This document shows positions 37,006 through 64,000 of a stretch of 64,000 nucleotides of DNA, piece by piece. The DNA is from Arbacia lixula. Its lineage: Eukaryota > Echinodermata > Echinoidea > Arbacioida > Arbaciidae. Location of the stretch: NCBI GenBank assembly GCA_963669155.1, contig OZ022587.1, forward strand, positions 1,691,808 through 1,755,807. The letters run 5' to 3'. Numbering within the stretch: position 1 is the first letter of the stretch; every line of letters starts with the position of its first letter. The position numbers were made by a program, and so were the translations under genes. The notes beneath the pieces were generated by a model, which was not told where the DNA came from, searched no databases, and saw nothing but the letters and a program-made list of their open reading frames with translations.

Positions 37006-37008
37006 ACT

Positions 37009-38061: not shown

Positions 38062-38094
38062 AGAGAGGCCTCTTGTAGTAAATCCTTTATCTGT

Positions 38095-40071: not shown

Positions 40072-41142
40072 GTGGACAACGCAGGGGTTCGATCTGAGAA
40101 TCTCATCGACCAGGCAGTCGTCATGGCTCATCAGATCATAGGGGCCAGAAGCGAAGGGACTAATTGCAAGTATTTTGCTGCATTCAAGAGATGGGAGTCT
40201 TACATCGTAGCAGAGGGGGGCAGAGCATTACCAGCAGAACCCATACACGTCGCATTGTATGTATCAAGTTTAATATCTCGAGGGTCCTCATTCGGTGTGA
40301 TTCAGGCAGCACTGTATTCAATAAAATGGGCGCATAGCATGAGAGGAGAAGCTGATCCAACGGATAATGCTTTCGTTAAAAACATTTTGGAGAGTGCCAA
40401 ACGTAGGACGTCGAGACCCGTCGCCAAGAAGGACGCGGTGTTTTCGCACCAAATCATTGATTTATGCAAGAAGTATGAAGGTTGTGAAGATGTTATGGTT
40501 TTGAGGGATCTCGCTTATATCGTTCTCAGTTTTTCAGGGTTTTTTAGATTTGATGAGATTCAATCTCTTCGCGCTTCTGACATTGTGTTTGAAGATTCAC
40601 ATATATCCGTTCTTCTACGGAGTAGTAAGACAGATCAGTATCGTAGGGGCAATACCGTCGTGATAAGTAAAGGAAATTCGAGTGCCTGTCCAGTGAAAAT
40701 TTTGAGAGAATATATGGATAAGGCAGGTATTCCCGAGAAATCTGATCAATTCGTATTCAGACCTGCTTACTGTAACAAAGGAAGAAAGGGTTTGTCTAAG
40801 GTAAACAAACGGTTAAGTTATACCAGGACCCGGGAAACAGTAGTGGCTCGTTTGCGGGAGGTATGCGGGAAAGAGGCTAGTTTGGGCCTTCACTCACTCA
40901 GAGCAGGAGGGGCTATACCGCCGCTGCCAGAGCTTCCGTGCCAGATAGGCTTTGGAAGAGGCACGGCCGATGGAAGAGCGAAAAGTCTAAAGATGGCTAT
41001 GTTGATGATAGTTTGGAGCACAGATTATTGGTTACCAAGTCTTTGGAATTATGAAAAGGGTTTTTTTCGTTTTTTGGGGTTGTTTTTGTTTCTGTTTGAC
41101 TTGAGAAATAGCACAAGATTTCGTGCGGTTAAATGTATGTAA
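40072..41142 (+). CDS. Tyrosine recombinase of the Ngaro-type element (fossil)
   Basis: About 350 codons with the layout of a phage-integrase-type recombinase. An N-terminal helical core-binding part (residues ~1-115) is followed by a catalytic part with LSFSGFFRFDEI and LHSLRAGG, which fit the first Arg and the HxxR motif of the family. In the family it integrates the circular DNA copy through the split repeats. The start codon is not certain. Confidence 0.8.
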   Translation: MDNAGVRSENLIDQAVVMAHQIIGARSEGTNCKYFAAFKRWESYIVAEGGRALPAEPIHVALYVSSLISRGSSFGVIQAALYSIKWAHSMRGEADPTDNAFVKNILESAKRRTSRPVAKKDAVFSHQIIDLCKKYEGCEDVMVLRDLAYIVLSFSGFFRFDEIQSLRASDIVFEDSHISVLLRSSKTDQYRRGNTVVISKGNSSACPVKILREYMDKAGIPEKSDQFVFRPAYCNKGRKGLSKVNKRLSYTRTRETVVARLREVCGKEASLGLHSLRAGGAIPPLPELPCQIGFGRGTADGRAKSLKMAMLMIVWSTDYWLPSLWNYEKGFFRFLGLFLFLFDLRNSTRFRAVKCM

Positions 41143-42342: not shown

Positions 42343-42450
42343 TAGTCGTTGTCAGGCTATCCCACAATAATTGAAGTGTATTATTGTGTTTTTTGTTTTG
42401 GGAGTCAGAGGGAAGACAAACGAAATAATGTGTGTAATTATAGAACAGAC
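42343..42450 (+). repeat. Split direct repeat B2 (right end of element)
   Basis: 108 bp copy of B1 forming the right end of the element. The LINE ORF2 frame resumes immediately after it. Confidence 0.93.
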
Positions 42451-42452
42451 CA

Positions 42453-45400
42453 GTTATTAAAAGTGAATGGAAGGGAGAGGCCTTTTTTTCCCATGGAAAC
42501 AACCGGTCTAGAGGGGTAGCTATTTTAGTTAAAGAGAAAAGTGATGTTACAGTGATTGGCACAATTACTGATTGTGCAGGAAGACTTCTCATGTTAAAAA
42601 TCGCAAAAAATAAGGAAAAATATTGCCTTATAAATGTTTATGCACCAACAGAAATAAGGTATAAAGATCTATTTTTTAAACAACTAAAAAAGCGTATTGA
42701 GGATATCCAAAAGGAATGCTTGAAGTGTTACTTTGTTCTCGGAGGAGATTGGAATTGTGTTTTGGACCCTAAAAATGATACTAAAGGGTCAAAAGGTTGT
42801 TATTATAGAACTCCTCGAAGACTGAAAATGCTCTTGAAACAAAAGGGTTTTGTAGATGTGTGGAGGAAATTGCATAAAAATGAAAGACAGTTTACCTGGC
42901 GAAATTTACATTTAAAAATAGCGTCACGTTTGGATTTTTGGATTATAAGTAGAGATATCATGGAAAAAGTAGTTTCTACCGATATAAGACCCGTTGTAAA
43001 AGGAGATCACAATGATATTTCTTTAAAACTGAGAATTTCAGAAATAACTAGAGGCCCCGGATATTGGAAAATGAATACCTCTTTACTTAAGGATATAAAT
43101 TTTCAAAACGGAATTAGAGACATTATCTGGAAGTGTGTAAACAGTTCTGAGAAATCTTTTGTAATGAAGTGGGAAATTTTAAAAATCAAGTGTAGGGAAT
43201 TTGCTCAAAAATGTGCCAAAAGGAAACGTAAAATATATAATAGAAGAGAAACGTTAGAAAAAGAATTAGATAACCTTGAACGTAATGTGGATATTAAGCA
43301 AAATGATCAACAGTTAAATAGAGAATATGTAAGAGTGAAAGAAAAATTAGAAAGGCTGTATAGATATGAATGCAAGGGAGCAGGAATAAGGTCACGAGCT
43401 AAATGGATGGAAGAAGGTGAAAAAAATACAAGTTATTTTTTGTCTTTAGAAAAGAGAAATGGTGAAAGGAAAGTGATTACACAATTGAAACCAAAGGGCA
43501 AAACATGCGTTGTTACAGAACAGCAGAATGTATTAAGAGAAGTTAAAAGGTTTTATGAAGATTTGTACAGAGGTAATTGTATACATTCAGATTTTGTCAG
43601 TGATTATGTGTCATCGCAAGAAGTGAAAGTTTTAAGTCATGATGAAAAGGATCTGTGTGAAGGATTAATGTCGAATCATGAGTGTAAACAGGCAGTTTCT
43701 GCAATGAAAAGAAATAAGTCACCGGGAATGGATGGACTTCCTGCTGAATTTTATCAATTTTTTTGGGATGAGTTAGGTGAACTTTTAGTCAAAGCATTTA
43801 ATGAATCGTATGAAAAAGGGTACATGTCAACCTCTCAACAGAAAGGACTTATTACTTTGATTTTTAAAAAGGGGAATAGTGACGACCTGAAGAACTGGCG
43901 TCCCGTTACACTGCTTAATTGTGACTATAAAATACTAACTACTGTTTTAGCAATGCGATTACAAAAAGTATTATCAAACATTATAATGGAGACACAGGTT
44001 GGGTATATTAAGGGTCGCTTGGGAGGCTTTAATGTCAGAATTATCCATGATATGATAAATTATATGAAGGAAAAGAAAATGGAAGGTGCAATAATGATGG
44101 TCGATTTTACGAAAGCATTTGATGTTATTGAGGTACCTTTTATCTTGAAATGCCTAGAAAAACTCAACTTTGGAGATAATTTTAGGAAATGGGTGGAAGT
44201 GCTGTATAGACGCACGTTTAGTTCAGTAATAGTAAATGGTTTCATCACAGAACAATTTGAAATACAAAGAGGCATACGACAAGGTTGTCCGCTCTCAGCT
44301 CTTTTGTTTGTAATTACAGCGGAGTTTCTCGCCAATAGAATACGCACAAATGATAGCATTAAAGGTATACATTTTAATGAAAGCAATGATCAGTTTGAAT
44401 TGAAGTTACTTCAATACGCTGATGACACAACATTTTTCGTAGGAGATAAAGGATCACTTAAACTTATTTTGAAAGAATTAGAAGAATATGGTAATATAGC
44501 GGGTCCAAGAATTAATAAGGAAAAGACTGCATTGTTGTGGATTGGGACAAGGGAAAACAGATGGGACCTTTCATGTATGGATCTGGTATGGAAAGAAGAT
44601 GCTGTAAAATATCTTGGATTTTTTGTGTCAACAAACGAAGTGGTAGCATGTAATGCAAACTGGAAAAATAAGTTAGATAAAATGCAACGGCTGTTAGACA
44701 ATTGGCGTAAGAGAAATCTCACCCCCTTTGGAAGGGTAACAATTTTGAAGAGTTTGATAATAAGCCAGGTGGTACATTTGTTTATGTTCAATTACGTTCC
44801 ACCGCTTATCATTAAAAGGATGAATAAAATGTGTTTTCGTTTTTTGTGGCAGGCCAAAGGGGAAAAGGTCAGGAGATGTTATGTTATAAAAAACTATTCA
44901 AATGGTGGATTGAAGATGACTGATATTGAAAAACAAGTGTTAAGTTTCAGGTTAAGATGGATAGGGAGAATAGTTGATGGTACAAATGCTTTGTGGAAAA
45001 ACTTAGCGAACTATTGGCTAGATAAATTAGGGGGTTTAGATTTATTATTAAATAGTGATTTTACAGTATATAATGTTCAATCTATGTGTAATCAGAACAT
45101 GCCTTTGTTTTATGTGGAAATAATTCAAGCTTGGGCATCAATTGACAAGCAGTTACTTAAAAAGAATTTACCGGTGGAAAAGAATATTTTATGGCACAAT
45201 CAACATGTTATCTTTAATAAGAAATCACTGTTTTTTAAAGAGTGGTTTGATAGTGGAATAATGCGTTTTGAAGATATTTTGACCGATGGAAGATTCAAAT
45301 CGGTAGAGGAAATAACCAGAGTTTTGAAATCTAGAAAGAGTAAAGGAAGAGCGATTTTTGATTATGCAAAATTACGTCAAGCTATACCAAAAATCTGGTT

Positions 45401-46085
45401 CACGCAAATAGTAATTAATAGGAATGAGAATGTTTTACCCCTGACTGTTCCGAAAATGAAAATAGGAAAATCTATGAGGGGATTAAGTGAGATAACATCA
45501 AAATATTTTTATCATCGGTTGATTTTGCAAGAAGGGGTATATACACGATGTTGCTTCTTTTGGGAAAATTTGGTAAACATAAATATAACATGGGCAAAAT
45601 GTTTTGAACGAAATTTAGTACGAGTAAATGATAACAAATTGCGAGAATTTAATTTCAAAGTGTTATATAATCTTTTGCCAGTAAAGAGGAATTTATGTAA
45701 ATGGAATTTGGGTGAAGATTCTAAATGCACAACATGTCAAGTAGATAAAGATTTAACACATGCCTTAATAACTTGTAAATTGAATAGAAAGTTTTGGGAT
45801 TATATTATTTGGCTGACTGAGAAGGTTTTTCACTTCCGTGTTGACATTAATATTGGACTTCTGATAAAAACTTCAGATTTTGTTGAATTAGATGAATTTA
45901 TGACAATAGCTTTTTGGAGCATTTATGAGTTGATAATACTACGTAATTATAAGGGTACCGATTACAGAAATTCAAGACTGAAATATTTATTTAAATCCGA
46001 GATACGAAAGAGGTTAGAGGTAAATAGAATTTGTACTGGTAAAGCTTTGTATAGTCTGCCAAATGAGTTACTGGATTTTGTTTAA
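42453..46085 (+). CDS. LINE ORF2 polyprotein: endonuclease (rest), reverse transcriptase, C-terminal zinc knuckle
   Basis: The frame is open from the border of the nested element to TAA at 46083-46085, more than 1,200 codons. In order: the rest of the endonuclease (LINVYAPTE, GGDWNCV, RLDFWIISRD, KGDHNDIS), then an RT with NKSPGMDGLPAEFY, WRPVTLLNCDYKI, MVDFTKAFD, GIRQGCPLSALLF and the catalytic YADD at 44415-44426. A CCHC-like knuckle (CTTCQVDKDLTHALITC) lies near the C-terminus. The enzyme nicks the target and copies the LINE RNA there. No internal stop is present, so this part looks recently active, but the N-terminus is separated by the insertion. RT motifs fit the L1/Tx1 group. Confidence 0.93.
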   Translation, partial: VIKSEWKGEAFFSHGNNRSRGVAILVKEKSDVTVIGTITDCAGRLLMLKIAKNKEKYCLINVYAPTEIRYKDLFFKQLKKRIEDIQKECLKCYFVLGGDWNCVLDPKNDTKGSKGCYYRTPRRLKMLLKQKGFVDVWRKLHKNERQFTWRNLHLKIASRLDFWIISRDIMEKVVSTDIRPVVKGDHNDISLKLRISEITRGPGYWKMNTSLLKDINFQNGIRDIIWKCVNSSEKSFVMKWEILKIKCREFAQKCAKRKRKIYNRRETLEKELDNLERNVDIKQNDQQLNREYVRVKEKLERLYRYECKGAGIRSRAKWMEEGEKNTSYFLSLEKRNGERKVITQLKPKGKTCVVTEQQNVLREVKRFYEDLYRGNCIHSDFVSDYVSSQEVKVLSHDEKDLCEGLMSNHECKQAVSAMKRNKSPGMDGLPAEFYQFFWDELGELLVKAFNESYEKGYMSTSQQKGLITLIFKKGNSDDLKNWRPVTLLNCDYKILTTVLAMRLQKVLSNIIMETQVGYIKGRLGGFNVRIIHDMINYMKEKKMEGAIMMVDFTKAFDVIEVPFILKCLEKLNFGDNFRKWVEVLYRRTFSSVIVNGFITEQFEIQRGIRQGCPLSALLFVITAEFLANRIRTNDSIKGIHFNESNDQFELKLLQYADDTTFFVGDKGSLKLILKELEEYGNIAGPRINKEKTALLWIGTRENRWDLSCMDLVWKEDAVKYLGFFVSTNEVVACNANWKNKLDKMQRLLDNWRKRNLTPFGRVTILKSLIISQVVHLFMFNYVPPLIIKRMNKMCFRFLWQAKGEKVRRCYVIKNYSNGGLKMTDIEKQVLSFRLRWIGRIVDGTNALWKNLANYWLDKLGGLDLLLNSDFTVYNVQSMCNQNMPLFYVEIIQAWASIDKQLLKKNLPVEKNILWHNQHVIFNKKSLFFKEWFDSGIMRFEDILTDGRFKSVEEITRVLKSRKSKGRAIFDYAKLRQAIPKIWFTQIVINRNENVLPLTVPKMKIGKSMRGLSEITSKYFYHRLILQEGVYTRCCFFWENLVNINITWAKCFERNLVRVNDNKLREFNFKVLYNLLPVKRNLCKWNLGEDSKCTTCQVDKDLTHALITCKLNRKFWDYIIWLTEKVFHFRVDINIGLLIKTSDFVELDEFMTIAFWSIYELIILRNYKGTDYRNSRLKYLFKSEIRKRLEVNRICTGKALYSLPNELLDFV

Positions 46086-49315: not shown

Positions 49316-50740
49316 AGAACACCTTTAAGCATATTCTTTACCCCAACAATCCAATCGGAGATCATCAAAATCACTAAACGTCTTAAAACACGTCTTCCTG
49401 CGGTCATGATGGAATTTGTGGGATTTTTTTTTTTAAAGAAGATTATCTATTGTATTTGTAAACCGCTTTGTCATATATTTAACCTTTCGCTTTGTTCTGG
49501 GGTTGCCCCGGATTGTTTTAAAATAGCTAAAGTACTCCCTGTGTATAAAAAAAGAAAAAAAAAGGAAGAAAGTCTTATCGACCCATTTCACTCATATCAG
49601 CTCTATCAAAGATTTTAGAACGAATCGTTTAAAAATGACTGTATAATTTCTTGAAGGATAACAATGTATTGATAAATGAACAATTTGTTTTAGGCCTTTA
49701 TTTTCAACAGAGACTGCTTTACTGCATGCCCTGGGGAAAATCATAGATCGTAGATAAGAAAGAGAAGCCTATTGGGTTGTATATTGATTTGAGTAAGGCG
49801 TTCGATTCATTGGACCATGGCATCTTACTGAGCAAACTTGATCTCTATGGAATCCGCGGTATACCACTACAATGGTTCGAAAGTTACTTACATAATCGTA
49901 AACAATACACTACTTTTAAAGGTGTCAACTCAAATACCATGTTGTTGAAAATTGGGGTTCCGCAGGGAAGTATCTTAGGGCCGCTCTTGTTCCTTGTATA
50001 TATAAATGACATCATCAAATCGTCGGGTGTCCTCAATTTTGCTGATGATATAAATTTGCTTGTATCGCAAAAGCAACTTAATCTTATTGTGACCAATGAA
50101 TTGAAAAATATATGTGATTGGTTAAAGGAAAACAAATCACAACTAAGTGTAGAAAGGACAAAACGTATGTTATTTCAGTCGACAAAGGCCACTACATTGT
50201 GTAATATGACTATTGGATATGATGATAGTATTATTTCAAGGGTAAATTACACAAATTTCTTGGGGGTAATACTTGGCGACAAACTTTCGTGGAATATCCA
50301 TGTAAACCATATCCACAGGAACATTATCATGTCATTAGGGATGCTTTATATAAAGTGCGTACAGTACTCCCAAATAAGATTCTTTGTACGATATACAATG
50401 CCCTTATACTGCCTTGTCTGGATTATTGTAGCCTGGTCTGGTCAGGCACGAGTTCAAAAAATCTAACCCGTTTATTTGTTCTCCAGAAGAAAGCCATTCG
50501 ATTATTTACCAACTCAAATAACCTTGCCCATTCTTCTCCACTGTACTCCACAAGAAGTACATACTTTAACTATTCATGATCGCATAGCGTTCAAACTCGG
50601 AGTTTTTGTTTGCAAATTTCTAAATGGGTTATTGCCACATGTTTTTACAGATTATTTTGCACAATATTCCCAAACCAATACTTTAAATACTCGTAAAATG
50701 GATAATTTTGTCCTGCGTTCTGTCGTTTGCATCTAACACA
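49316..50740 (+). pseudogene. Broken reverse transcriptase of CR1/L2-type LINE
   Basis: The longest open part (49777-50466) reads YIDLSKAFDSLDHGILLSKL, then VPQGSILGPLLFLVYINDI and the catalytic block FADDINLL: RT motifs of CR1/L2/Jockey-like LINEs. Upstream (49250-49618) and downstream (50289-50736) pieces continue the same protein in other frames, so at least two frameshifts are present. A stretch near 49620-49775 that should hold the next RT block is degraded. This is a dead element fragment. Confidence 0.85.
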
Positions 50741-51912: not shown

Positions 51913-52019
51913 ATCTTTTTCTATTCCGTTTACCATACATTGCGAGACAAACGATTATCACTAGCCCTAATTTGAACTTGAAGGGACTATTGCAATCTGT
52001 GTTGATAAGCTCTAAAACT

Positions 52020-52238
52020 ACATTGTGTCCATATTATATTTAAAATACACTGGCCAGACATTGACAATTGACTACAATGAACATATTGCATGGCATCATC
52101 AACGAGTAACATTAGAAATCAATAATCCTTTAGAGTTCAAATTGTCCGTCATTCATAAGCTCCTCATGTTTCGATACAATAAAGAAACTAAAAGATACCG
52201 CTATGATGCATACATTAAAAAGAAGAGTGTCAACGTAC
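52020..52238 (-). other. Intron-like sequence homologous to the array
   Basis: This stretch aligns, with clear divergence, to the array segment beside E exons. Shared landmarks include AAGAAGAGTGTCAAC, the string ATCAATA(T)TCCTTT and CGATACAA. It is the minus-strand intron directly 3' of the parent LRR exon and shows that exon and intron together were the source of the repeat. Confidence 0.75.
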
Positions 52239-52409
52239 CCTCAAAGAGGGAGCCATCATCTGCAGTGTTTCGTAGAACTCGTCACACAGATGTAATTCGC
52301 CTTCTATTGAGAAGTTGGCGAGAGATGAGAGTCGACCAATGAATCTTGCCAGTTCTCGGCAGGCTGATTGTGATGAGATGGCTGTCTCGTTCAGCCTAAT
52401 AACCTCAAT
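52239..52409 (-). CDS. LRR exon of the 2A/Death/LRR gene; parent-type of the array E exons
   Basis: A 57-codon exon (171 nt) opened by acceptor TTTCATCTGAG and closed by donor GTACGTTG, phase 0 on both sides. It reads IEVIRLNETAISS, then ACRELARFIG and FSIEGELHLCDEFYETL. It aligns over its full length with array E exons (for example ACRDLARFIGHYS, GELHLDDEFYAGL) with many amino-acid differences but the same length. The pattern is that of LRR segments of echinoderm NLR proteins, as I remember them. Its start is phase-compatible with exon 53750-53899. Downstream on the minus strand come first the old LINE, then the array with ten open homologues. I infer it is either the ancestral exon or the outermost, most diverged repeat copy. 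Confidence 0.75.
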
Positions 52410-52609
52410 CTCAGATGAAATAAAAAGCAGCAAACATAAAAGTAACTTTAGTTTTATATGTTACATTAGCTTTCATTAGATTTGTAGGTACATTGTCAGT
52501 TTGATTTCTTTGTTCTCAATTAGTATACAACTAAGATATGGGTTGCTGTGAGTTAGTAAATCTACTTCCAAAGTGGGATCAACATTACCACCCCCTAGGC
52601 TTTATACTA

Positions 52610-52855
52610 AAGTTTAAAGAAATGAAGTGGAAATGGACAGGACACTTAGCCAACACAAGATATCAGTTGGACTAAGAATCTCACAGAATGGTAATCTAGA
52701 AATGGTAAGAGAAGAAGAGGTAGACAGAAGAGGAGATGGAGTGGTGATAAGCATACACCAACGCAGCAACATGGTCTAGATTGACTGGAGACAGAACAAA
52801 ATGGAGTTTGCTTGGGGAGAGCTTAATCGGACAGTGAATATACACAGCCTGATAA
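52610..52855 (+). mobile_element. 3' coding tail of a non-LTR retrotransposon, decayed
   Basis: In plus-strand frames one reads KWKWTGHLANTR, then WTKNLTEW and NGKRRRGRQKRRW, then TWSRLTGDRTKWSLLGE in a shifted frame. This is the well-known post-RT tail of several LINE families. It has stops and frame changes and sits in the intron between exons 53750-53899 and 52239-52409. Confidence 0.75.
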
Positions 52856-53300
52856 TGAATGGTGACTTAGGCTTTCCAGGTCACAGCAGCCCATAACTTG
52901 TTTTATATCACTCATCGATAATCAACAAAATAATTTATATCATTGAAAAGTAAGGAGCTCAGTGACGCGAGGTTGCCCAATCGCTAATAAATAAAACAAA
53001 ATGCACCATCGTTACTCTACGCATGCAAGCGATATGGGACACGTATAAGCACCAAACATACACGCGCATTGTTCAATGTACATGATTTGCCGGTTCCGGT
53101 AGAATGTGTGTGCCGTTTGACGATGTGGATAACAGAAATTATATTTTGTGATTGCTTTACATTATCACAGCACTGACAGTTAATGTTAGAGCACTATCAT
53201 ATTTTTTACGAACAAGTATAATTATACTTGCTGTATCTGGATACAACCATACCCGCCTCGTCATCCCCTTCTCGTGGCAACAACCTTCTCCTGAAGCATT

Positions 53301-53320
53301 GGGTTAGGGTTAGGGTTAGG
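53301..53320. repeat. Short interstitial telomere-type repeat
   Basis: GGGTTAGGGTTAGGGTTAGG, three full TTAGGG periods, in an intron. It is too short to be a telomere; it may be a repair scar or chance. Confidence 0.8.
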
Positions 53321-53749
53321 AACTGGAACTCAACAGGTGGCGATCTGGTGCTATTCGTTCCGCGTATCAAATCAAACATGGGCATCGCAGATTGTGGTAG
53401 TAGAGGTAGACAACGAGTTGAAAAGAGTGATACACGTCTATACGCTACTATTAAACGCTGTTTTATACAGCGCATGAAAACCAAGGCGGACAAACTGAAT
53501 GTATTGGCCTTATTCGTCAAAATGAAAGCTCTGACTTGTTTGTGAACATCGAACAACATCTGAATGCAAGTCACATCTAATGTATCCTTCCAAAGCTTGA
53601 AAAAAGGGAAAGCCTTTTAATCTTTTAATGTCTCCAATCAATGCGACTTCACGGACATTAAAGCCCATTAACCTATCCAGCTTGGAAACCAAACGAAGTA
53701 TCTTTAACAGCCGACACCGTTCATTTCATAATCTTGTGTGAATACAAAC

Positions 53750-53899
53750 CTGTGAATCCATGTCTACATCCGTTGTCCCAGCGAATGCATCGTCTGGAAT
53801 CTCTACACGACACAAAGTCAATTTCCGCACAGACGTACGATGGTATAAAGCGTCCACAATGTCTCGTGACATCTCGCATTTATCCAAGAGGAGATTTTC
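53750..53899 (-). CDS. LRR-like exon of the 2A/Death/LRR gene
   Basis: A 50-codon exon between acceptor TATATTTGATTCAG and donor CAG-GTTTGTAT, phase 0 on both sides. It reads ENLLLDKCEMSRDIVDAL, then VRKLTLCRVEIPDDAF. The V.KLTL.....P...F pattern is LRR-like. It joins in phase to the exon at 55063-55156 upstream and to 52239-52409 downstream. Like the array exons it is symmetric, so it can be included or skipped without changing frame. Confidence 0.65.
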
Positions 53900-54344
53900 C
53901 TGAATCAAATATACATATAATGCCTCGATTATTTGTGGACATATTTAGCAGAGTGCGTTAATAAGGGCATTCATTATACTACCAAGATCTGAATAACCTA
54001 AATAACTTTCATGTATATCCCCTTTATTTGAGAACGAATATATAGGCGTAGATGGCAAACAAAAGTTGCATTCAACAATCTCCAATAACGATTATCTAAT
54101 GATAATAAAAATAATCAGCTTGCAAGCAGTGCTTTTCTAGTACGAAGTAGGACCCATATAATGCGCTAGTTTATTACCATGGCTTTAGCAAGCAGCCGTT
54201 TAAAGCTGTAGAAACTTGTTGATCTAATTAGGAGTAAAATCACGAGTAAATCCTGCCTGATACCAGTTTATATACACCTGGGTTGAGAGAGCAAATGAAC
54301 AAAACGCCTTGTTCAAGGGTGTACGCACCGGGCTGGGTTGAAAC

Positions 54345-54375
54345 CTCCCCCCGGGGGAGGGGGGGGGGGGGGGTC
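54345..54375. repeat. C/G homopolymer tract
   Basis: A run of C followed by a run of G of about 20 bases (CCCCCCGGGGGAGGG then G only), in an intron. Likely slippage-prone and hard to sequence exactly. Confidence 0.85.
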
Positions 54376-54424
54376 ACTCACCACATATTGTGCTACCCAC
54401 GCGCGTCACACACTTAAAAAACGG

Positions 54425-54530
54425 ACCCTATATGGCGTAAACCCCGCAGAGACCCCGTCGAAAAACATACCCTAAATGCCCTAAACCAGGTAAAATATAT
54501 ACTCTAAATGGCGTAAACCCCGCAAAAGAA
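54425..54530. repeat. Two copies of a ~73-bp repeat
   Basis: ATGGCGTAAACCCCGCA appears at about 54432 and again at about 54505, with partly similar sequence between. No function recognised. Confidence 0.5.
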
Positions 54531-55062
54531 ATGGTAGAAAAGTATATGTCGAAAATAGAAATTGTAAATTAGTAATCTAAACGTCGAAAAAAGCAGTTGA
54601 AGATGAAAAACACCTCCTTTTTTAGGAAAATGTTGTCGACGTCAAAGAGCTGAAAACAAACCCTTTTCGACGCTTTTTGTGAACGCGGTATGTTAAGTAC
54701 CAGAGTTAAAATCCAGAGTCTCTCTGTAAGAATCAACAGCTCTCTCCACAGTGCCCTCATCTACATCACAAAGCCGTAGTGGAGGCGCCAAATGGACTAA
54801 GGCGCTGATTTATGGACTGTTAAATAAAGTTGTTACTGAAAACGTGTGCTGGTACTAAAGTCTACCTATCCAACATTCCTATCTGAAATGTAACAGTCAA
54901 AACTGAACATTAATTTACGGTAACTATTTTTTGAGGGAAGTTCCTACACGGTACGCTACGTTGAATTATACTTTGGCCTGCAAATTAAACGTTTTAATAA
55001 CCCTTCATTTGCGACATGTGGTAAAAATCTATATTTGGAAAGGTGTATAGAATCGCTCTTAC

Positions 55063-55156
55063 CGGGCCATGTTGAATATCAACCTGGATCTTGCTTTGTT
55101 CTCTGATTTCTTCGCAAAGCTGGTCAAGCTCATCATCAACGTAACACCCTTCGAAA
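55063..55156 (-). CDS. LRR-linker exon of the 2A/Death/LRR gene
   Basis: A 94-nt exon from acceptor TTGTTAAACAG to donor CCG-GTAAGAGC. It starts by completing a codon begun with AG in the exon at 56599-56978 and then reads FEGCYVDDELDQLCEEIREQ and IQVDIQHG, ending in phase 0. The ...DDEL..L pattern resembles the DDEFY..L part of the array exons. The short length makes the protein call weak, but both splice sites and both phases fit the neighbours. Confidence 0.6.
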
Positions 55157-55209
55157 CTGTTTAACAATAATTAAGGAAATGGTACAAATATGTACATTGG
55201 TTAAGGGTA

Positions 55210-56097
55210 GGGGAGAGTGGGGTAACTACGGACATAAAATTTCAAACTTCTGTGTTAGCATAACGAGTAGTCACATCATCGAATGGACATCATATCATGT
55301 ACCTAGGCGGTATACCCTCATTATGGCATAGATAAAGGCAAATAGCGTTAATCAATGAGAAGATATCAGACTAATTTGAATAACTAAAATGTTAAATTTA
55401 TTTTACTAAAACCGGAAACAAGCCATTTGAAAATAAATATAAACAAAACGCAAGGTATGTGGAATATGTTTGATTTTTTTTTATTTGAAAGGAACTTACC
55501 AATTTTTCAGACAGTTAATTAATTATCGTTTAAGTCAATTGTGCTTAAATGAGAAGAGCAGTAATAAGTGAAGCTCAGTTTTACATTTTGTGAAAAATGT
55601 GAAAATACTAAACATTTTTAAAAGCAAAAATTAGATGGCAAGTCAAAAACATCCATGTTTCAAGTCGTTCTTCAGTGTTTTATTTTATAGGTGCAGGTTC
55701 TGTAAAATACGACGCGTGCAATCATTATGATAAGCAGTGGAACTGCTTCTTATAACGGACTGTTGGAGACAATGATATATTCCTCCTGTTATTTTAGATT
55801 TCTCGTTATATAAGGGTAAAAATCATAATATTACCGGTAATATGGGACAAATTGGGCAATAACGTACACCTGTCCGCTATTATTCCACGTTGACCTTTGA
55901 CCCATGATATTTTTATACAGCCTAAACCACTGATTCATACCAATTAACACTGCATTTCTGTAAAAGAATGGAGCACACTGAATAAAACTTTGTCGCAAAA
56001 ATTTTCTGATATTTTCTGGAACTTGACTTGTCACGTGCGGAGCATCTCAGCCCGGATAGAGTTACTACCCGATGTCCGTATTTACCCCGCTCTCCCC
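55210..56097. mobile_element. MITE with 25-bp terminal inverted repeats and TA duplication (888 bp)
   Basis: Left end 55210-55234 begins GGGGAGAGTGGGGTAA. The right end (56073-56097) is its inverted copy with two mismatches. TA flanks both ends (55208-55209 and 56098-56099), as in Tc1/mariner-type and some other elements. The inside is AT-rich with no protein frame. The element lies in the intron between the LRR exons 56599-56978 and 55063-55156. Confidence 0.85.
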
Positions 56098-56515
56098 TAT
56101 AACAGATGGCAAGATCAATTTTCTATAACTGTAATACTTCATACACTGCTGAACAAAGCAAAGTTTAATGGATCTTTAATATAGAATTGCTACACTACTT
56201 CAAATGAGACCTTATCATGTCAATGAAACTTGAAACAGTGTATGAGGGTCGATGAAGGTTTAGCCCTCCGTTATGATGCTTGTGTAACTTGGAGAGGGTC
56301 TCATTAGAAGGAAAATTGCAGTTATCGCCATGAAAGAGATGAGATTTTTCGTGGTTCTAGACAATTATAGGAACATGTGGTTAACATTTAGACACTGTAA
56401 ATGTGATAAAATACACGTTAAACTTTCTTATCCATCGAAATCACGTACATTTCTCCTTGTTTCGAGTGAAGAGTAGTGGTCGTTAAAGGTCTTAATATGC
56501 TAAGCGTAGCATTTT

Positions 56516-56580
56516 TTTTTTAAAGAACAAACAGCCCCCCCCCCCCCTCCCAGCCCTCCTCCCCTCCCATCTCCCCTCCA
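56516..56580. repeat. Homopolymer and C-rich low-complexity tract
   Basis: A T run is followed by A-rich sequence and then a C-rich stretch with a run of about 13 C. It lies in the intron directly 3' of the LRR exon ending at 56599. Confidence 0.8.
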
Positions 56581-56598
56581 CATTGAGCTCGCTCCTAC

Positions 56599-56978
56599 CT
56601 TGCTGAGGTGAAACAAGTGTGGTTTCTGAGATTGCGCAGCATTGCCTCACAGCGTGTGTTGCCAACCATTAGGTCTTTGACACGTAATCGCTCGACCACT
56701 GGAAATGCCAATATCAGCGCCTGAGATAACGCTGCCGGTTCCCCCGTGACTGAAACAACCTGACTCGATGAATCAGGATGACCATTGCATATCAATAGCT
56801 CCCTCACAGTCGAGTGTGCTAGCAGCTGGATTGTGCGTAGGTTGACTGTACGGTGTGCGATGAGTGTGAGCTTCTGGAGACTGGGGAACAGCATGCTGAG
56901 GGTGGCATTGCGGGATTGCAGCCCGTCCAGGAAACCGTCATATACGGTGAGCTCACGCAATGCCTGTGTGGTCCCTTC
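56599..56978 (-). CDS. Main LRR exon of the 2A/Death/LRR gene
   Basis: A 380-nt exon with a strong acceptor (GATTCTGTTGTATCACAG) and donor AAG-GTAGGAGC. It is open in phase 0 and ends two bases into a codon. The protein has LRR spacing: LRELTVYDGFLDGL, MLFPSLQKLTLIAHRTVNLR, STVRELLICNGH, LAFPVVERLRVKDLMV. It follows the linker exon 57262-57380 in phase with an intron of only 283 bp, which leaves no room for a NACHT ATPase domain. LRRs in this family sense or bind ligands. Confidence is good that it is coding; the exact LRR boundaries are not set. Confidence 0.8.
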
Positions 56979-57261
56979 CTGTGATACAACAGAATCAAGG
57001 AATCAACAAGTTTTCCAGACATTGGGTGCGATTAATCTGAATCGATCACTAGTATATATTTTATTCCCGAACACCTACGCCGTGTCAACAGTTGAAAAGC
57101 TATTTTACCGCCACACCATTTCTCAGAAGCCTCTCCCCCTCAAGCATGATCCAATGTGGTAAGTGTCAGGTTATATCAGTTTCCAGTATATAGGTTTTCG
57201 TACTCAAGCGGAAATATCATTGTTGGCTTATCCTGTTAGGATTTATACAAAAGTGACCCAC

Positions 57262-57380
57262 CTTCTCTTCGTAGAACTCCCTTAGCTCCTGCTTACAGCT
57301 AGCTATCTCCTCATCAGTTAGTCGTGGAGGATTCTCTGCTGAGATTTGTGAGAAATTCCAGACAACAAAGTTCTTAATCT
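57262..57380 (-). CDS. Linker exon resembling the pre-NACHT segment of NLR proteins
   Basis: A 119-nt exon, acceptor ACATAACTTAG with a pyrimidine tract 15-30 bases upstream, donor AAG-GTGGGTCA. It enters one base into a codon and leaves in phase 0. It reads KNFVVWNFSQIS, then LTDEEIASCKQELREFYEEK. In echinoderm and amphioxus NLR proteins, as I remember them, a C..EL..[FH]Y segment like this precedes the NACHT domain. Here the next exon in phase is LRR instead. An alternative acceptor, eight bases further upstream (CTTCAAAAG), would break the frame with exon 57945-57977. Confidence 0.65.
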
Positions 57381-57944
57381 CTAAGTTATGTCTTTTGAAG
57401 AGGGAGAGGGAGCAATGGAAATCAACACATGTATATAGCTCACATGCATTATACAAATAGCACGTTTACTAACAAGTATATGCATTATATTTGTTAATTC
57501 CGATGACTAAAATTTAAGGCCGTTTAGCAAACACTATGTTTATGCACGTGTCATATTCATGAAATGTGGTGTCTAAGCATTATCTGTGTTACTTGAGGAA
57601 GCTGTTCATGGTAATGGATATTCTCCTAGGAAAATAAACCATACAATTACGACAAATCAACAGATGTCACATAAAATGAGTTGATACTTCCGGTTTGTTT
57701 CGTTTGACGAAGTTATGGAGTGTCGGGAAACATGATAAGCTAATATAAGCATGGGCCTTATACCTCTTGATTACCGTAACGCACAGATGAAAATACATAT
57801 TATAAACCTTGCAAGTGAGAGTTTTATTTAAGAACATGTCGATGCATCTCCATGGTAATGCTGTAAGCTCACATTTCAGGCTGTTTATTCACCATGCATA
57901 TGTTTTTAAAAACAAGGTGTGTACGGTTTTTTTCTGAAAGTTAC

Positions 57945-57977
57945 CTGACGATTCTGCCCCGAGTGAAGGATACTGTC
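57945..57977 (-). CDS. 33-nt exon of the 2A/Death/LRR gene
   Basis: It is bounded by acceptor TTACTATTTTAG and donor CAG-GTAACTTT. At 33 nt it keeps the phase (enters and leaves one base into a codon), adding QYPSLGAESS-like sequence. It is supported by splice motifs and phase only. Confidence 0.5.
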
Positions 57978-58342
57978 CTAAAATAGTAATACATATAAGC
58001 AAAACAACTGTTTAAAGTACATACGTTTTCAATAAAAACATATAGCGAGAAGTAATGACAATCTTACAAACAGGTAATGTTACAAAGTAATCATTGGGCA
58101 TTTCAGATTGTTTTGCTTGTAGAAGTTATGGAGTATCAGGAAACAGATATAAGTCAACAGAATAACAGTCCTTTTACACATGACAACCGCCACGCCCAAT
58201 AAAAGTTGCACATTAAAATCAATGTGAATTCAATTAAATTTTGGTTCTTTTTAAGCCTGTTGGCATTCTGTTTTCTAAGACATGTTATCACTAGCATGTT
58301 TCGAAGAAGGCATCATCACTAAACGATAAAGATGCGAATCAC

Positions 58343-58614
58343 CTTCTCTTAACCTTTCCCCTAACGAGTCAAGATCAATCTCGTGCAGTTTCCTCGCGAG
58401 CTCTTCACGGCAGTTCACCGTAGCACCTTGTTGGTCCCTCCAATAGAAGAGTATCTCCCTCAGGCTGTCTTCGAAGTTGGAATGGTGCTCTTCCAAGATG
58501 TTGTCGCAATCTACATATGACCTTCCTAAAGCCTGCCCCAGGTCCATGAACTTATCGGTAGGAACTTCCTTTGCCAGATCGCTGAGCTCAAGGTCCATCA
58601 GACCGTGAGTCGGA
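58343..58614 (-). CDS. Death-domain exon of the 2A/Death/LRR gene
   Basis: Acceptor CCACTCCACCACTTTTAG-like pyrimidine tract at 58615-58635; donor AAG-GTGATT at 58341-58342. It completes a codon begun with CC in the 2A exon. It reads LELSDLAKEVPTDKF, then LGQALGRSYVDCDNI, LREILFYWRDQQGA and REELARKLHEIDL. This matches the Death fold: L..LA....... F..LG..LG....D...I, then a W and L...L. Death domains recruit signalling partners by homotypic contact. Without splicing at the donor the frame would stop at 58275-58277, giving a possible short Death-only product. Confidence 0.85.
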
Positions 58615-58754
58615 CTAAAAGTGGTGGAGTAGGAAATAAACTTCATTTGGAATTCTTTTGTTTGTAAGCTAGATACCACTGTGGGGTGAACATGGCGAAC
58701 CACGAGTGGTAGACATATTTCACCCGTTTTCCAGTAAATGTTTTTTTTTTCCAC

Positions 58755-58985
58755 TTTACCGGATTCTCACCCTGGATAAGTTTAATGTAGATAAAGTGTG
58801 CCTCTCATTTACACAGGACCCCTTATTTAACATCATGTTTGAGTGTTTTCCCACAAAGGGAGATGCGCAACAACACACAGCGTGAGGTCCTTTACGAGGA
58901 CTTGTGTGGGACTCGATCTCACGGCCTTGCCATAGCGAAAATTATTTCTACCAATTATTGAGCCACGCTGCTCTCCCTAAGTCTA
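58755..58985 (-). mobile_element. tRNA-derived SINE
   Basis: On the minus strand the 5' part looks like a tRNA: a box-A-like TGGCTCAATAATTGG and a box-B-like AGATCGAGTCCC about 45 bases further, inside a frame starting GAGAGCAGCG. A non-tRNA body follows down to about 58755. It lies in the intron between the 2A exon and the Death-domain exon. Confidence 0.6.
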
Positions 58986-59277
58986 CGGACTACATGCACG
59001 CTCATGTCAGTCAAAAAATTGACTAACGTTTGGATATAAGCGGCATCCATAGTCAAGCACTAGTATTTTTCCGATATGCCACGTGTCATCAGTGTATAAA
59101 ATTGATATTTGAGCAGATGAAACCAGTCCGATATACTAAGCAAGTGGCATATATGCGTCACCTTTATTTTTACTGATGATTACCTATGAACACTTAATTC
59201 CCAGAGCCATTCTTAACCACGTGAACATACCTGAGATTATAGCCCATGACATGACAGCATGTGAGTGAGAGACTTAC

Positions 59278-59438
59278 GGCGAGTTGGGACCAGGGTTCAA
59301 CTCCACGTCCCCTGCCCTAACCAGGAGCATCTCATTGATGGGGGCGGGGCCCCGAGTCTCGCGAAGCGGGATAGTTCCTGACATTCCATTCGACCGCACA
59401 CCACTGCCACAGACTGGGACTGAAGCAGGTGGACTTTC
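59278..59438 (-). CDS. 2A-motif exon of the 2A/Death/LRR gene
   Basis: A 161-nt exon from acceptor AAACGCTTCATAG to the strong donor GTAAGTC. It is open in phase 0 and ends with CC, completed by T of the Death exon. It reads ESPPASVPV, then MSGTIPLRETRGPAPIN, MLLVRAGDVELNPGP, then NSP. The stretch fits the 2A consensus D[VI]ExNPGP with the usual preceding G and a short hydrophobic lead. On the proposed join the preceding exons (61827-60190) are in frame, giving an upstream polypeptide of about 434 residues released at NPG, with the Death/LRR part starting at the following Pro. Alternatively translation could begin at the in-frame ATG at about 59382-59384. Confidence 0.75.
59286..59309 (-). 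promoter_or_regulatory. 2A ribosome-skipping peptide DVELNPGP
   Basis: The codons for D-V-E-L-N-P-G-P lie at 59309 down to 59286, preceded by a Gly codon. In known 2A peptides the Gly-Pro bond at the end is not formed and translation resumes at Pro, so one mRNA yields two separate proteins. Sea urchin NLR genes and several non-LTR retrotransposons carry such N-terminal 2A motifs. The motif is complete here. Confidence 0.85.
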
Positions 59439-60189
59439 CTATGAAGCGTTTAATATAAATAGATGTTGCTTTTCTTAAAACTTCCATTGTCAATGATGTA
59501 CAATCAGAAGTTATTGCATGTATATCGTGATCTGACGAAATGTGTGTTTGGAAGTAAACTTAATATATTGGTCAAACGACGAATGTTGTAATAGGCAACA
59601 GTACAATCAGGGGGCCAGGGAAATATATTTTTATTAAATGGAAATATCAAACGAGGAATCAAATGAAAAGCTGCGTCTAAGAGACATGAAGCTAAATATC
59701 GCACTTGGTTGAGGTTATTTGGATTAAATATTAGTCCGTCCTGTCTGAATTAAGTCTGTCATATATGGATGATAATTCATAAAATGTATAGAACTGATAT
59801 TGAATAGTAACAGGTAGCTTCAAAGATCGAAATATAATCAAAGGAACATCTTCTTAAGCGATTCAAAGAAAAATTAATGAGTTAAGAATCAGGCACATGT
59901 GTGTCTGAAGAAAATACCATGAGAAAGATCGGGTTGGAAAATCCAGCAAAGATAGGAAAGATAGAGGGACGGAGATATAAAGGAGGAAACAGATGAATTT
60001 GGTAATCATTGTGAATGTATGGAATGCAGAGAGAGGTGTAGGCCAGCAGGTGATCCTGAAGGTGAAACTCATCATGAAGGCTTTAAAGAAAGATTTATGG
60101 CACATCATGATCATCTAAGTTTCCTAATACTGCACTTAGAGAGAGAGAGAGGGGAAGGGGGGGGGGGGGGTAGCTTGTATAATATTTAC
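59439..60189. other. Intron sequence with a G-rich tract
   Basis: Between the 2A exon and the basic exon. It contains a GA/G-rich run at about 60137-60171. No exon with good splice signals on both sides is recognised inside. Confidence 0.55.
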
Positions 60190-60375
60190 CTCTGTATGAC
60201 GTAAGCCTTCGCCAACTTCCTTTTTTGTGCTATGGCGACGCAATCGTGGCATGAACGACGGGTAGTACTTGGTAGAACTAGAACTCCTACTTATACGAAA
60301 GAACTTGCGTATTCTCCGTCGCAAGGTGTTAGTGTGAGCATAGTCAGCACCTTCGGAATTTTCCCTCCTCAGATT
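60190..60375 (-). CDS. Basic exon of the 2A/Death/LRR gene
   Basis: A 186-nt exon with a strong acceptor (TTTCCCTCTTGTGTTCAG) and donor GAG-GTAAATAT, phase 0 on both sides, 62 codons. It reads NLRRENSEGADY, then TLRRRIRKFFRISRSSSSTK and MPRLRRHSTKKE. The protein is strongly basic and Ser-rich, with no known domain; it could be a nuclear or membrane-binding patch. It joins in phase with the long exon upstream and with the 2A exon downstream. Confidence 0.7.
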
Positions 60376-60861
60376 CTGAACACAAGAGGGAAAAACGGAA
60401 AACATAGTATCCAGTAGTGAATACCAAAACACCACATTTAGCAAGCACATACTGCAAGTATCTACATGTATCTATGCGCTGAAAAATTAGAAACATGAAA
60501 AAGAAGATAATTTTACAATGTCTGTTATCATTTACAACCGAAATAATCATGCTCACAAAAAATGTTGTTAACAGGTACTGGTTAATCTCCTGTCTTTTTT
60601 TTTTCTCATTAGATGACGTGTTCCATACATTTGATGGTGGCGATAAGAAATGACTTACAGAAATATTTTTCAAGACTAGATGTGTAATTCGGTGCATTTA
60701 GATGAGCATTTATGGGCTAACTACACTAACTGAGCACAAATATCAAACTTGAATATCATGTTTCCTATCAAGCCAGTGTAAGTGCTCATTATATTGTTTT
60801 AAAATACTCTTTTTTTTTCATAATCGTCGTACATTGTAAATATTATGAATGGGTTACTTAC

Positions 60862-61827
60862 CTGCTGTGAATCGCCTGTCTTCAGTGTCTGTTGGTCAGT
60901 CTCACTGTGTGATTCTTTGTCATCGCAGCTCAGATCAGTCCCTGTAGCTGGTTGGTCAGTTAGTTCGCTGTTTCTTGTCATCATACAATCAGTCAAGCTG
61001 GCGGCAATGCTTGGGAACGTATAGTCCTGACTGGTAAGGCACTTGCCTCGGAATTTTCTTTCTTCTGAAGATGGACACGCCTGCTGGAATGGAGCGATCG
61101 CTTCTGAAGAAGCCCTTTGTTGAAATGACGTTTCCATCGTTGTTGTCGGTTCTTCCCCTTCGCTACCAGAAAGGAGTTCCTTACACGGGACAGCGCCCTC
61201 TGACGACAACTCTATCGGTTTCTGCGTCCCTACTTCTCTGACTTCTTCGTGCCCATTGCTGCAGTACTCTGTCTTTTTAGGTAATACTTTATCGGTACTA
61301 GTATCGCCCGAAGAGACCTGCCTTGGTGAAACGCATTTGTAGTTGTCATCGGAGGAATTTTTCCTCTCGGAATCTGTCATCTTGCTTGGAGGGGTGATAT
61401 TGGATTCTGTTGTAGGTGAAATTGATTGACAGGAGCCATGATTGCAAACCGGCTCCTTGAGTGGTGGATCTTGACGGGGAATACCTTCTAGAGAAGCTGT
61501 GTCGGTCTTCCTGTAAGGAGCGTGGATGTTTGCTTCTGCTTCTTCGCCCTCCACATTCTTCACCTCGTGATTGTGACAGCCGTGTGAGGAAGAATCGTTT
61601 CCATGTGCATGAGTAGAATCGTTGGATTGTGAAGTAGTATTGTCGTTTCCTCCACTGTCGTTGTGAGCTGTGTTACTGTCTTCATTGCTACTCTCTTGTC
61701 TCTTCAGCAATGCATTATGAAGTCTTAATCGCCTAACCAAGAACGAGAACCGTTCCTCAAGTTTAGACCCAGCCCTTGGGAGGAATCCACCGATCCTTGC
61801 TCTCCATACGTCGACTGACACACCCAT
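60862..61827 (-). CDS. First coding exon: long Ser/Thr/Asn-rich N-terminal region
   Basis: ATG at 61827 opens 322 codons ending at donor CAG-GTAAGTAA (a near-perfect match to consensus), phase 0. The N-terminus MGVSVDVWRARIGGFLPR is compact. The xVSVxxWRARIGxF opening is one I believe recurs at the start of other 2A-bearing proteins of echinoderms and amphioxus, but I cannot check it. A basic helix-like stretch follows (FLVRRLRLHNALLKR), then about 270 residues of polar, probably disordered sequence with a His/Asn/Ser-rich part. No signal peptide or membrane segment. On the gene model this is the part released upstream of the 2A site. It could also belong to a neighbouring gene if the splice joins are wrong. 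Confidence 0.7.
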
Positions 61828-62953
61828 ATTATGTGTGCTGCGTAGCTGTTACATCGGCTAGCTGTAAATGGTATGACAAGAAGGGGTAAACGAAGACGTG
61901 CAATACCATATCCCATTATGAAGTGGTGCACAGTTGTGGGAATACACGTTATATAGTTGAGTTAAACAGGGAGGGCACGCCATCATACTATATCAGGACA
62001 TGTTCATGGGTCTGTATTTGACCATAAGGACAGTGGTCACAGTCTGCGGTGCCTCATCTTTTCATTATAGATGAGAAGCGACCAACACCAGGCCAAAGCC
62101 CGTTGATCCAGGGCTTCCTGGGAGATTGTTGCCATGCAGGAGGGTAAGATGGTCGAAGTTTCAATGCATTGGAGAAACTTGTCTTTCTTGCCCAAGGTAC
62201 CCTCATTATCGTTAACCATTACTTCATGCATGTGATCAATGGATCATGCTTGGTCCCGTTCTCTCTCCAAGGTATGTTTATGAAACAGCTATGTCGACCA
62301 CTAGCAGCTGTAGCTGCAACACTTGCAGCTGGCTTTGTTCGGACCCATATCCATCAGATAGATAGGTTCAGCAGAATTATACATTATACTTTATTATTAC
62401 CAAAAATGGACACAATTGAAATACAGTCAGAGGGCCGGTAGATACATGATCATAATGAGGATATTGAGCATAACAAAATGTATACCACAAAGCTGTTTTA
62501 AACACGCAAGAAGAGCATTGTCAGGTTCAATGTTTGAATTGAGTGAATATATATTAATATTTATGTAAAGTACATATATCATTTAGTTAGAATTTACTTT
62601 CAATTCTGGTATTATACATTCCGTTGTTTGCACTATGGTATTGGCATAGTAAACTGGCATTATCCGTATGGCCGTGACAACATTTAATTCGCAGGTATAA
62701 TTCACAACCAATGGCACAGTTACACAAGTCATATACCTTGCTACCTTTTATATGTTTCTTTTTTGTTGTTTCCTTGGTTGAGTTCTAAAATGAAATGTCT
62801 TTTCATTATGTCGTTGCTATAAGAAATAACCATATTTGACATGACTATGACCATAATTCACCCTAATTTAAAGCATCTATCTGGAAAGATCGAAATTTAT
62901 ATCTCTTCGCACTTTAAGTGTGTAGATTCTGATGCCTGATAGTCCTGGCTAAT
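61828..62953. other. Upstream stretch without a recognised gene
   Basis: It should hold the promoter and 5' UTR of the minus-strand gene. No TATA or other promoter motif stands out. Short frames on both strands near 62037-62441 show no recognisable protein. Confidence 0.4.
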
Positions 62954-63698
62954 ATATTAACACACATGCACAAAAAATAACATAATTTTTTATTGAAGAA
63001 GTTTTGGGCAAAATAATTCGACAGGACTGTTCCTTAACTTATTGACCAACTTATGTGTGACAATCACATTAATCCAATCAGTCATGCATGAGTGGGCAAA
63101 TTTTAAAGGCATAAATGTCACTTTTCAGTCACAAGGGTAATTTTGGGATTCTGTCACATGATTTTTTATGAATTCCATTTCTGTTGCATAATTTATGTAC
63201 TGTGAATGTTTATCATCAATCTCTTGATGCACTTACACCTATCCTGACACTGAATTCATTGTTCTGGTTGAGTGAACAAATACCCATCCCTCTTGAGTTT
63301 GAAACTTTTGAAAAGCCTTTATTTTGGTTAAAAAAATAAAACTCTGGATATTTTTAAAAAGATGTAGCGTGGCCTGATGTGTAAACATATGAAGTTATTT
63401 TCGTGTCATGGTTGAGTGAAAACACTTTAAAAATCGCACAAGAAATGCCAAAATGTATTGTTAACACGACATAAACAAATACCCTTGTGACTTTGGAAAT
63501 GTTACATTTTTCTCTTTAAAGTTTAAAGTTTGCTCACTCATGCATGACTAATTGGTTTAACGTCATTTTCACACAGAAGTTACTCCATAAGTTGAGGAAC
63601 AATCCTGCCAAATCATTTTGCCCAAGACCTTTTTCGATAAAATGTTATGCTGTTTTGCTTGGGGGGGATTACTTTTTTGTTGTGTTTATATATATTAA
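62954..63698. mobile_element. Long inverted-repeat (foldback-type) element
   Basis: The left arm (about 62954-63145) and right arm (about 63476-63698) are inverted copies roughly 190-220 bp long with mismatches and small indels. Matching landmarks are TTGGGCAAAAT near the outer part, AGTCATGCATGAGTG in the middle and TCACAAGGGTA near the inner end. The spacer of about 330 bp has no frame of note. The outer ends are blurred, so no target duplication could be read with certainty. It fits a long-TIR MITE or foldback element. Confidence 0.75.
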
Positions 63699-64000
63699 AA
63701 ATACATAAATATTTGTGCTAAAGGCATGAAGGTACAGACGGGGAGGGGGAGAGGGGGGGTCACTTTAATACAACAGAGCCTAGAAATGTGCTTTATGATG
63801 ACACATTACATTCAACGTGTGAAATACCAAGAAATTCTCATCAAACCTTTTGATTATGCCGGGTCAGTATCTCTCTGTCATATATGCCTTAGCCGAGCGT
63901 TGGAGACCGAACGTACGTTTTGCATCGCACCGTGTCAATTCAGGCGCCAGATCGCGCTACTTTTGACTTCCGCGCCGCGACTTGCAAAGCTTTACCGCTA
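63699..64000. other. Right window edge, no feature recognised
   Basis: AT-rich sequence with a G-rich run near 63738-63760. The last 120 bases become GC- and CpG-rich, which may mark the start of something outside the window. Confidence 0.4.

Follow-up and report, generated by a model that had tools for sequence, protein, structure and literature searches.

The 2A-like sequences closest to the one considered here are those of the sea urchin Strongylocentrotus purpuratus, a species for which 2A-like sequences were reported in about 35% (85/241) of cases (Roulston et al. 2016, PMC4981915). In that paper, an N-terminal 2A of 26 amino acids (aa) is present in 14 database entries of NLRs; 12 of these 14 SpNLR2As are predicted signal sequences; recoding together with signal-sequence function was shown for one SpNLR2A and its variants, the 2A in the tested case serving to release a short signal peptide; and some NLRs have 2As located in the N-terminal region, with lengths not stated there. 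2As that precede a Death domain are therefore already known from this source, which also reports 2A-like sequences in S. purpuratus non-LTR (long terminal repeat) retrotransposons. Among RNA viruses 2A skipping is common; a survey of viral junctions, in which the 2A is called StopGo, describes StopGo as rare in cellular genes (PMC12846837). Here, we describe a candidate minus-strand gene of the sea urchin Arbacia lixula, in which a complete 2A lies in frame before a Death-domain exon and may follow a long coding part. It lies at 52.2–61.8 kb of a stretch of 64,000 nucleotides (nt) of contig OZ022587.1 (assembly GCA_963669155.1, positions 1,691,808 to 1,755,807), which is referred to as the window.

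The Arbacia locus is like the SpNLR2As in the complete D(V/I)ExNPGP before a Death domain and in most of the residues that end the 2A. The difference is that the S. purpuratus sequence is a 26-aa hydrophobic N-terminal 2A before Death-NACHT-LRR, whereas here, if the exons are spliced as proposed, the 2A would come after a 384-codon part, with no hydrophobic run and no NACHT seen. The distance from the initiator Met to NPG would be 434 aa if exons 1 and 2 are joined and 32 aa from a Met at 59384, next to about 26 aa in the SpNLR2As. The preliminary description of this DNA had stated that known sea urchin 2A-NLRs have short leads, which agrees with the 26-aa N-terminal 2A of the 14 entries (PMC4981915). 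In the literature examined, parts of the cited papers, no 2A is described that follows a 434-aa partner and has no signal sequence, and no claim is made that such a case is absent from print. Viral StopGo/2A junctions share with this locus the core octapeptide, an L-rich hexapeptide ending in (A/S/C)G and the parting of two sizeable proteins (PMC12846837), but the sequence here belongs to a cellular gene with introns. The 2As of APE-type non-LTR retrotransposons, found also in S. purpuratus elements, are alike in being 2A-like sequences; here, in contrast, no reverse transcriptase or endonuclease match was found downstream on the same strand in the stretches scanned.

The 2A core, LLVRAGDVELNPGP, occupies 59286–59327 of the minus strand, within exon 3 (59278–59438, 161 nt), which reads ...AGDVELNPGPNS in phase 0. 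Skipping is predicted between the Gly at 59291–59289 and the Pro at 59288–59286. The nonapeptide GDVELNPGP (59312–59286) is the sole NPGP across the six frames of the window, and one match in the window, against none in 100 dinucleotide shuffles, was obtained with a degenerate DNA pattern that covers D(V/I)ExNPGP and also allows M at the second residue. GDVELNPGP is no chance match, and its presence, complete and in frame upstream of the Death exon, was correctly noted in the preliminary description.

The last 14 residues are identical at 11 of 14 positions to SpNLR2A6, LLMRSGDVETNPGP in S. purpuratus against LLVRAGDVELNPGP here, the former being the translation of a primer printed in PMC4981915. 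In vitro, SpNLR2A6 shows about 80% recoding. Its activity is substantially lowered in the mutants R11A, L13V/A and L14G/D; D25A, L21V and L21D cause a smaller loss, and other changes of L16 and L21 little or none; and M12V is a natural variant with activity equal to wild type (PMC4981915). R11, L13 and L14 are retained here, and residue 12 is V. The hexapeptide p6–p11, LLVRAG, is L-rich with an AG end and resembles motifs 2/6 of the StopGo survey, by comparison and not by assay. In that survey, L-rich hexapeptides ending in (A/S/C)G precede the D of viral StopGo, and Leu is among the favoured residues overall at the variable position, while Ser accompanies the L-rich motifs ending in (A/S/C)G (PMC12846837). 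For GDVELNPGP itself, the values listed are about 99% for ERBV-1 and about 89% for a porcine rotavirus (row 'Porv-C') (PMC8623073); with the ERBV-1 peptide, about 70–99% was reported from fission yeast (PMC10520729). Two points weigh on the other side: the 12 residues that precede the last 14 all differ from those of SpNLR2A6, positions 21 and 25 included, and chimeric 2As are often inactive according to the survey (PMC12846837). On balance, 2A skipping activity is likely at this site, and, given that the exon is translated, we judge skipping to be highly probable. The known dual-targeting role of the sea urchin NLR 2A is not likely here; this 2A is without the hydrophobic signal run of SpNLR2A6.

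In the proposed gene, exon 1 (60862–61827, minus strand) begins with the ATG at 61827, with A at -3 and G at +4, and comprises 966 nt, or 322 codons, ending in the donor CAG|GTAAGT. Exon 2 (60190–60375) has 186 nt, a number divisible by three, for 62 codons, with a strong acceptor and a good donor. Exon 3, the 2A exon, has the weak acceptor TTCATAG|G, enters in phase 0 and hands on 2 nt at the donor GCC|GTAAGT. Exon 4, the Death exon, occupies 58343–58614 (272 nt). The internal boundaries of exons 1–4 show the AG and GT dinucleotides. Exons 1 and 2 have one open frame each (frame 0), frame 0 of exon 3 carries the 2A, and frame 1 is the sole open frame of exon 4, in which frame 0 holds 5 stops. 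The exon coordinates and splice phases are as first proposed, with lengths of 966/186/161/272 nt, and exons 1–4 join in frame and without a stop. From the ATG at 61827, the stop-free chain runs through exons 1–6 and can be extended across putative exons 7, 8 and 9. A start-stop, ATGTAA, is situated at 61854–61849 on the same strand, 27 nt 5' of the ATG at 61827 and in its frame, and would be a minimal upstream ORF (open reading frame) if it is within the 5' leader. Further upstream of the gene, at 62996–63633, there is an inverted repeat with 112-nt arms, 83% complementary and 414 nt apart, which is similar to a miniature inverted-repeat transposable element.

By its openness exon 1 is coding and not a chance frame, as any frame stayed open in none of 2000 dinucleotide shuffles; the Death exon would hardly be open by chance (44 of 2000), and exons 6 and 2 seldom (151 and 153). 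Chance openness comes easily for exon 8 (268), exon 9 (385), exon 5 (569), exon 7 (921) and the 2A exon (1092), so openness carries no weight for the 2A exon. Searches of the window for a second copy of exons 1–3, and by tblastn of exons 4, 6, 7 and 8, gave nothing with a meaningful E-value.

The upstream product is predicted to have 434 aa with the C-terminus NPG, and 384 of its codons are supplied by exons 1 and 2. It is hydrophilic, and Ser and Thr make up 22% of the first 384 codons, which had been described as Ser/Thr-rich; the same part had also been called basic, which does not apply to the whole, since its isoelectric point (pI) is 6.1 and only exon 2 is basic. The pI is 5.1 for exon 1, which is Ser/Thr-rich, acidic and hydrophilic, 11.4 for exon 2, and 6.0 for the 434 aa. 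The highest 19-residue Kyte-Doolittle value over the 434 aa is 0.49, so that the hydrophobic signal upstream of the 2A core that is predicted for most SpNLR2As is not seen and, on hydropathy, no signal sequence is expected. The protein is probably disordered, as judged from its composition. Exon 1 has no relative in Pfam and no match to PDB sequences at E-values up to 1, and none was confirmed in viral and prokaryotic contigs, which is expected for an animal gene and silent on its novelty. Likewise, no relatives of the 2A exon and Death exon were confirmed in viral contigs, and Rfam gave no match at gathering score. A suspected likeness of the start of exon 1 (VWRARIGGF) to retrotransposon proteins found no support in a text search and a six-frame search of the window, and was dropped.

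Whether exons 1 and 2 share one mRNA with the 2A and Death exons depends on the join between exons 2 and 3. Splice sites were scored with matrices of textbook values, whose limits are shown by the low ranks of several proposed acceptors. On this strand, the exon 1 donor tops all GTs, the exon 2 acceptor exceeds 99.9% of AGs and the exon 2 donor is at 98.3%; within their introns, the acceptors rank 1/24 for exon 2, 2/36 for exon 4 and 1/12 for exon 6. The GC content rises from 0.32 to 0.62 with the best breakpoint at 59434 (interval 59450–59418), at the proposed start of exon 3, and none of 300 permutations reached this step. The same test was clear at the exon 3 donor (0/300) and at each of the exon 2 and exon 6 acceptors (4/300); it was uninformative at the exon 2 donor (158/300), the exon 4 acceptor (90/300) and the start of exon 1 (290/300). 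With its 161 nt, and with stops in frame 0 of exon 4, exon 3 could not be skipped without putting exons 1 and 2 out of frame with the Death exon. The interval between exons 2 and 4 holds 73 in-frame candidate exons, and exon 3 has the best splice score of those of at least 120 nt.

Several observations weigh against this join. Among all 73 candidates, exon 3 is only 6th by splice score, and the AG that serves as its acceptor scores at the 76th percentile and takes rank 13/28 within the intron. A stronger acceptor (98.5%) is present at 59413, 25 nt inside exon 3, and an equally good one (76.7%) at 59419, both out of frame. Phases at the exon 2–3 join would agree by chance about one time in three, and the composition step does not separate an acceptor from a transcription start. 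The acceptors of exons 5 (8/48), 7 (18/69), 8 (8/64) and 9 (13/70) also rank low, from which the splice score appears limited and the last exons less sure. Splice scoring leaves the exon 2–3 join unsettled.

An alternative is that there are two genes here: a 2A-Death gene whose coding sequence would begin in exon 3, at Met 59384 (MSGTIPLRETRGPAPINEMLLVRAGDVELNPG|P), and a separate upstream gene with exons 1 and 2 that would end before 59438. The ATG at 59384 is in frame inside exon 3, has G at -3 and gives a 32-aa lead, like the known short leads, and the S. purpuratus NLR 2As lie in a 26-aa N-terminal peptide that begins with Met (PMC4981915). The weak exon 3 acceptor fits this arrangement, and the upstream gene could end by reading on from exon 2 to a stop near 60136, or in a terminal exon at 59904, where an AG (98.7%) is followed by a stop after 13 codons and by an AATAAA at 59635. 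Against it stand the good donor of exon 2 and the space of about 750 bp in which the next gene would have its start; the ATG at 59384 is preceded, at 5 nt, by another ATG that is out of frame; and the 32-aa lead has no signal-like hydrophobic run, whereas most SpNLR2As are predicted signal sequences. We regard the presence of two genes as rather unlikely. A related arrangement is one gene with two promoters. Transcription from exon 1 would give a long message for two proteins, and transcription from exon 3 a short one for the lead plus Death, so that the Death protein would be made with or without its partner. Both starts are usable by sequence and the exon 2–3 phases fit; we consider this arrangement clearly unlikely.

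For a single mRNA, then, the phases, the strong sites of exons 1 and 2 and the GC step stand on one side, and the poor exon 3 acceptor, the better out-of-frame acceptor and the possible separate end on the other, so that the earlier proposal of one mRNA for two proteins was upheld in part. We judge it fairly probable that exons 1–2 and the 2A-Death exons are carried by one mRNA. The complete reading, one gene whose single mRNA would give two proteins through 2A skipping, is in our estimate slightly favoured.

The predicted downstream product starts at the Pro of NPGP, with the N-terminus PNSPPTHGLMDLELSD. Exon 4 matches the Death family PF00531 (about 58589–58347) with an E-value of 1.5e-5 and 25.5 bits, against a cut-off of 22.6. 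Single-sequence AlphaFold2 (AF2) modelling of the exon gave a pLDDT (predicted local distance difference test) of 73 for the best of five models and 37–41 for the other four. The top Foldseek matches of the model are death domains (TNFR1, FADD, PIDD complex) with probability 1.00, a TMq of 0.54–0.62 in the first six and a best E-value of 0.029, none being at or below 0.001; among PDB sequences the best match is a chain named PIDD-CC (E 0.046). The Pfam score above cut-off and the Foldseek matches bear out the Death domain of the preliminary description.

The LRR part of the Death/LRR protein then proposed found no such support. L-x-x-L-x-L patterns are seen by eye in the putative downstream exons. 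Pfam gave no LRR match at E-values up to 10, or up to 1 for exon 9 and 7 of its copies; searches by PDB sequence and profile gave weak matches, none of them LRR; and the best Foldseek matches of the exon 6 AF2 model, of low confidence (pLDDT 55), are not LRR. The Pfam scans covered 14 distinct stretches of the gene region, 8 exon 9-type sequences and 8 ORFs elsewhere; not every ORF was taken in, the interval 52000–64000 being overlapped by 50 with a length of 60 aa or more. No NACHT match was obtained in the 14 stretches. Because no NACHT was found and only 283 bp (57261–56979) separate exons 5 and 6, the Death gene looks like a NACHT-less NLR derivative.

The exons 3' of 58343 were proposed from open frame, splice dinucleotides and phase; the ones after exon 6 were selected by their open frame and phase, and the longer chain therefore cannot serve as separate evidence of their existence. 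Putative exon 5 (57262–57338, minus strand, as for all that follow) encodes the linker ENPPRLTDEEIASCKQELREFYEEK in a single open frame with fitting phases; exon 6 (56599–56978) has 126 full codons and is LRR-like by eye only; exon 7 (55063–55156) has a weak acceptor and two open frames; exon 8 (53750–53899) is LRR-like by eye only; and exon 9 (52239–52409) has 57 codons in phase 0-0 and would either read on to the TGA at 52230 or splice at AGG|GTACGT. We presume a resemblance to parts of sea urchin NLRs for the linker of exon 5 and for the 57-residue exons.

An end of the gene at the TGA at 52230 is uncertain, since exon 9 matches a repeat array. This array extends over 85–49118, with units that carry copies of exon 9 and their flanks on the minus strand, in steps of about 815 and 2250 bp; among the 20 families listed there are 27–30 copies of 300 nt per family. 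Mixed with broken copies, ten full-length, uninterrupted 171-nt paralogues of exon 9 are found on the same strand at 1451–48931 (starts 48931, 35441, 28073, 23368, 18658, 14333, 12082, 9800, 5907 and 1621), with 58–60% identity in seven aligned. All ten retain the frame, an AG before, GTATGT after and phase 0-0, so exon 9 may splice on instead of ending the gene, and the array copies are possibly further 3' exons of the 2A-Death gene. The downstream protein would have 387 aa if exon 9 reads on to the TGA, and could reach 955 aa past the 2A with all ten open copies included by splicing.

The array is an exon amplified into a satellite-like array. Its other exon 9 copies fall into 10 cut short after 33 residues; 11 with a stop and a length of 43 residues; 13 with 21 residues, of which 12 have a stop; and 11 partial matches with 10 residues. 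The upstream flanks are 69–71% identical in three copies compared. Between exon 9 and the copies, the nonsynonymous rate (dN) is 0.30–0.31 and the synonymous rate (dS) 0.47–0.51, for a dN/dS of about 0.6, which suggests constraint that is weak at most.

Such features could also belong to a decaying locus, a duplicated NLR that lost its NACHT and keeps an unused relict 2A, or a 2A exon from a non-LTR retrotransposon, while its 3' exon expanded into the satellite-like array. The missing NACHT and LRR matches, the short space between exons 5 and 6 and the weak acceptors are consistent with decay, as are the at least 34 truncated or stop-bearing exon 9 copies next to the ten open ones, the dN/dS value and the transposons nearby. 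However, the long frame is intact, with exon 1 open in no shuffle; the Death domain scores above the Pfam cut-off; the ten full-length exon 9 copies all preserve frame, AG and GT; and no endonuclease or reverse transcriptase match occurs in the stretches scanned on this strand. We consider decay very unlikely; the exon array slightly raised our estimate for it and slightly lowered that for two genes.

The array (1–49 kb) is broken up by retrotransposon and recombinase ORFs. On the plus strand, 42444–46082 is an open ORF of 1213 codons with a reverse transcriptase match (PF00078, E 6e-35) and a sub-threshold zf-RVT, and is the ORF2 of an L1-like retrotransposon. Also on the plus strand, 36988–41139 contains a CCHC zinc-knuckle ORF (36988–38058), followed by an ORF (40006–41139) with a sub-threshold phage-integrase (tyrosine recombinase) match; we assume that this element could be DIRS- or Crypton-like. 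A second reverse transcriptase fragment (49747–50463, plus strand; PF00078, E 2e-16) lies in the interval that separates exon 9 from the first copy of the array, and 39069–39385 is a tandem repeat of 3.7 copies of an 85-bp unit with 96% matches.

The explanation that we favour is a single minus-strand gene, whose one mRNA would encode a 434-aa signal-less protein, a Death-domain protein and, between the two, a 2A. At ...VELNPG|P, the ribosome would miss the Gly-Pro bond in most rounds, the upstream chain would be freed with an NPG end and synthesis would resume at Pro, giving the two proteins in roughly equal amounts and a minor fusion. The Death protein would most likely act in the cytoplasm as an NLR-derived adaptor or receptor, with the upstream protein as a partner or regulator made alongside it in a fixed ratio. 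In its broadest form, this is a two-protein cassette, in which the 2A would part a signal-less and probably disordered protein from a NACHT-less Death protein that may end in an expandable array of 57-residue exons, the sea urchin NLR 2A having turned from a targeting switch into a bicistronic linker; we hold the chances of this form to be evenly balanced. If it is true, animals would use 2A as viruses do, to separate two substantial proteins of a cellular gene. The locus would then be a natural case in which to test how an immune Death protein and its partner are co-expressed in a fixed ratio, and also a case for how 2A gained or lost its signal-sequence half.

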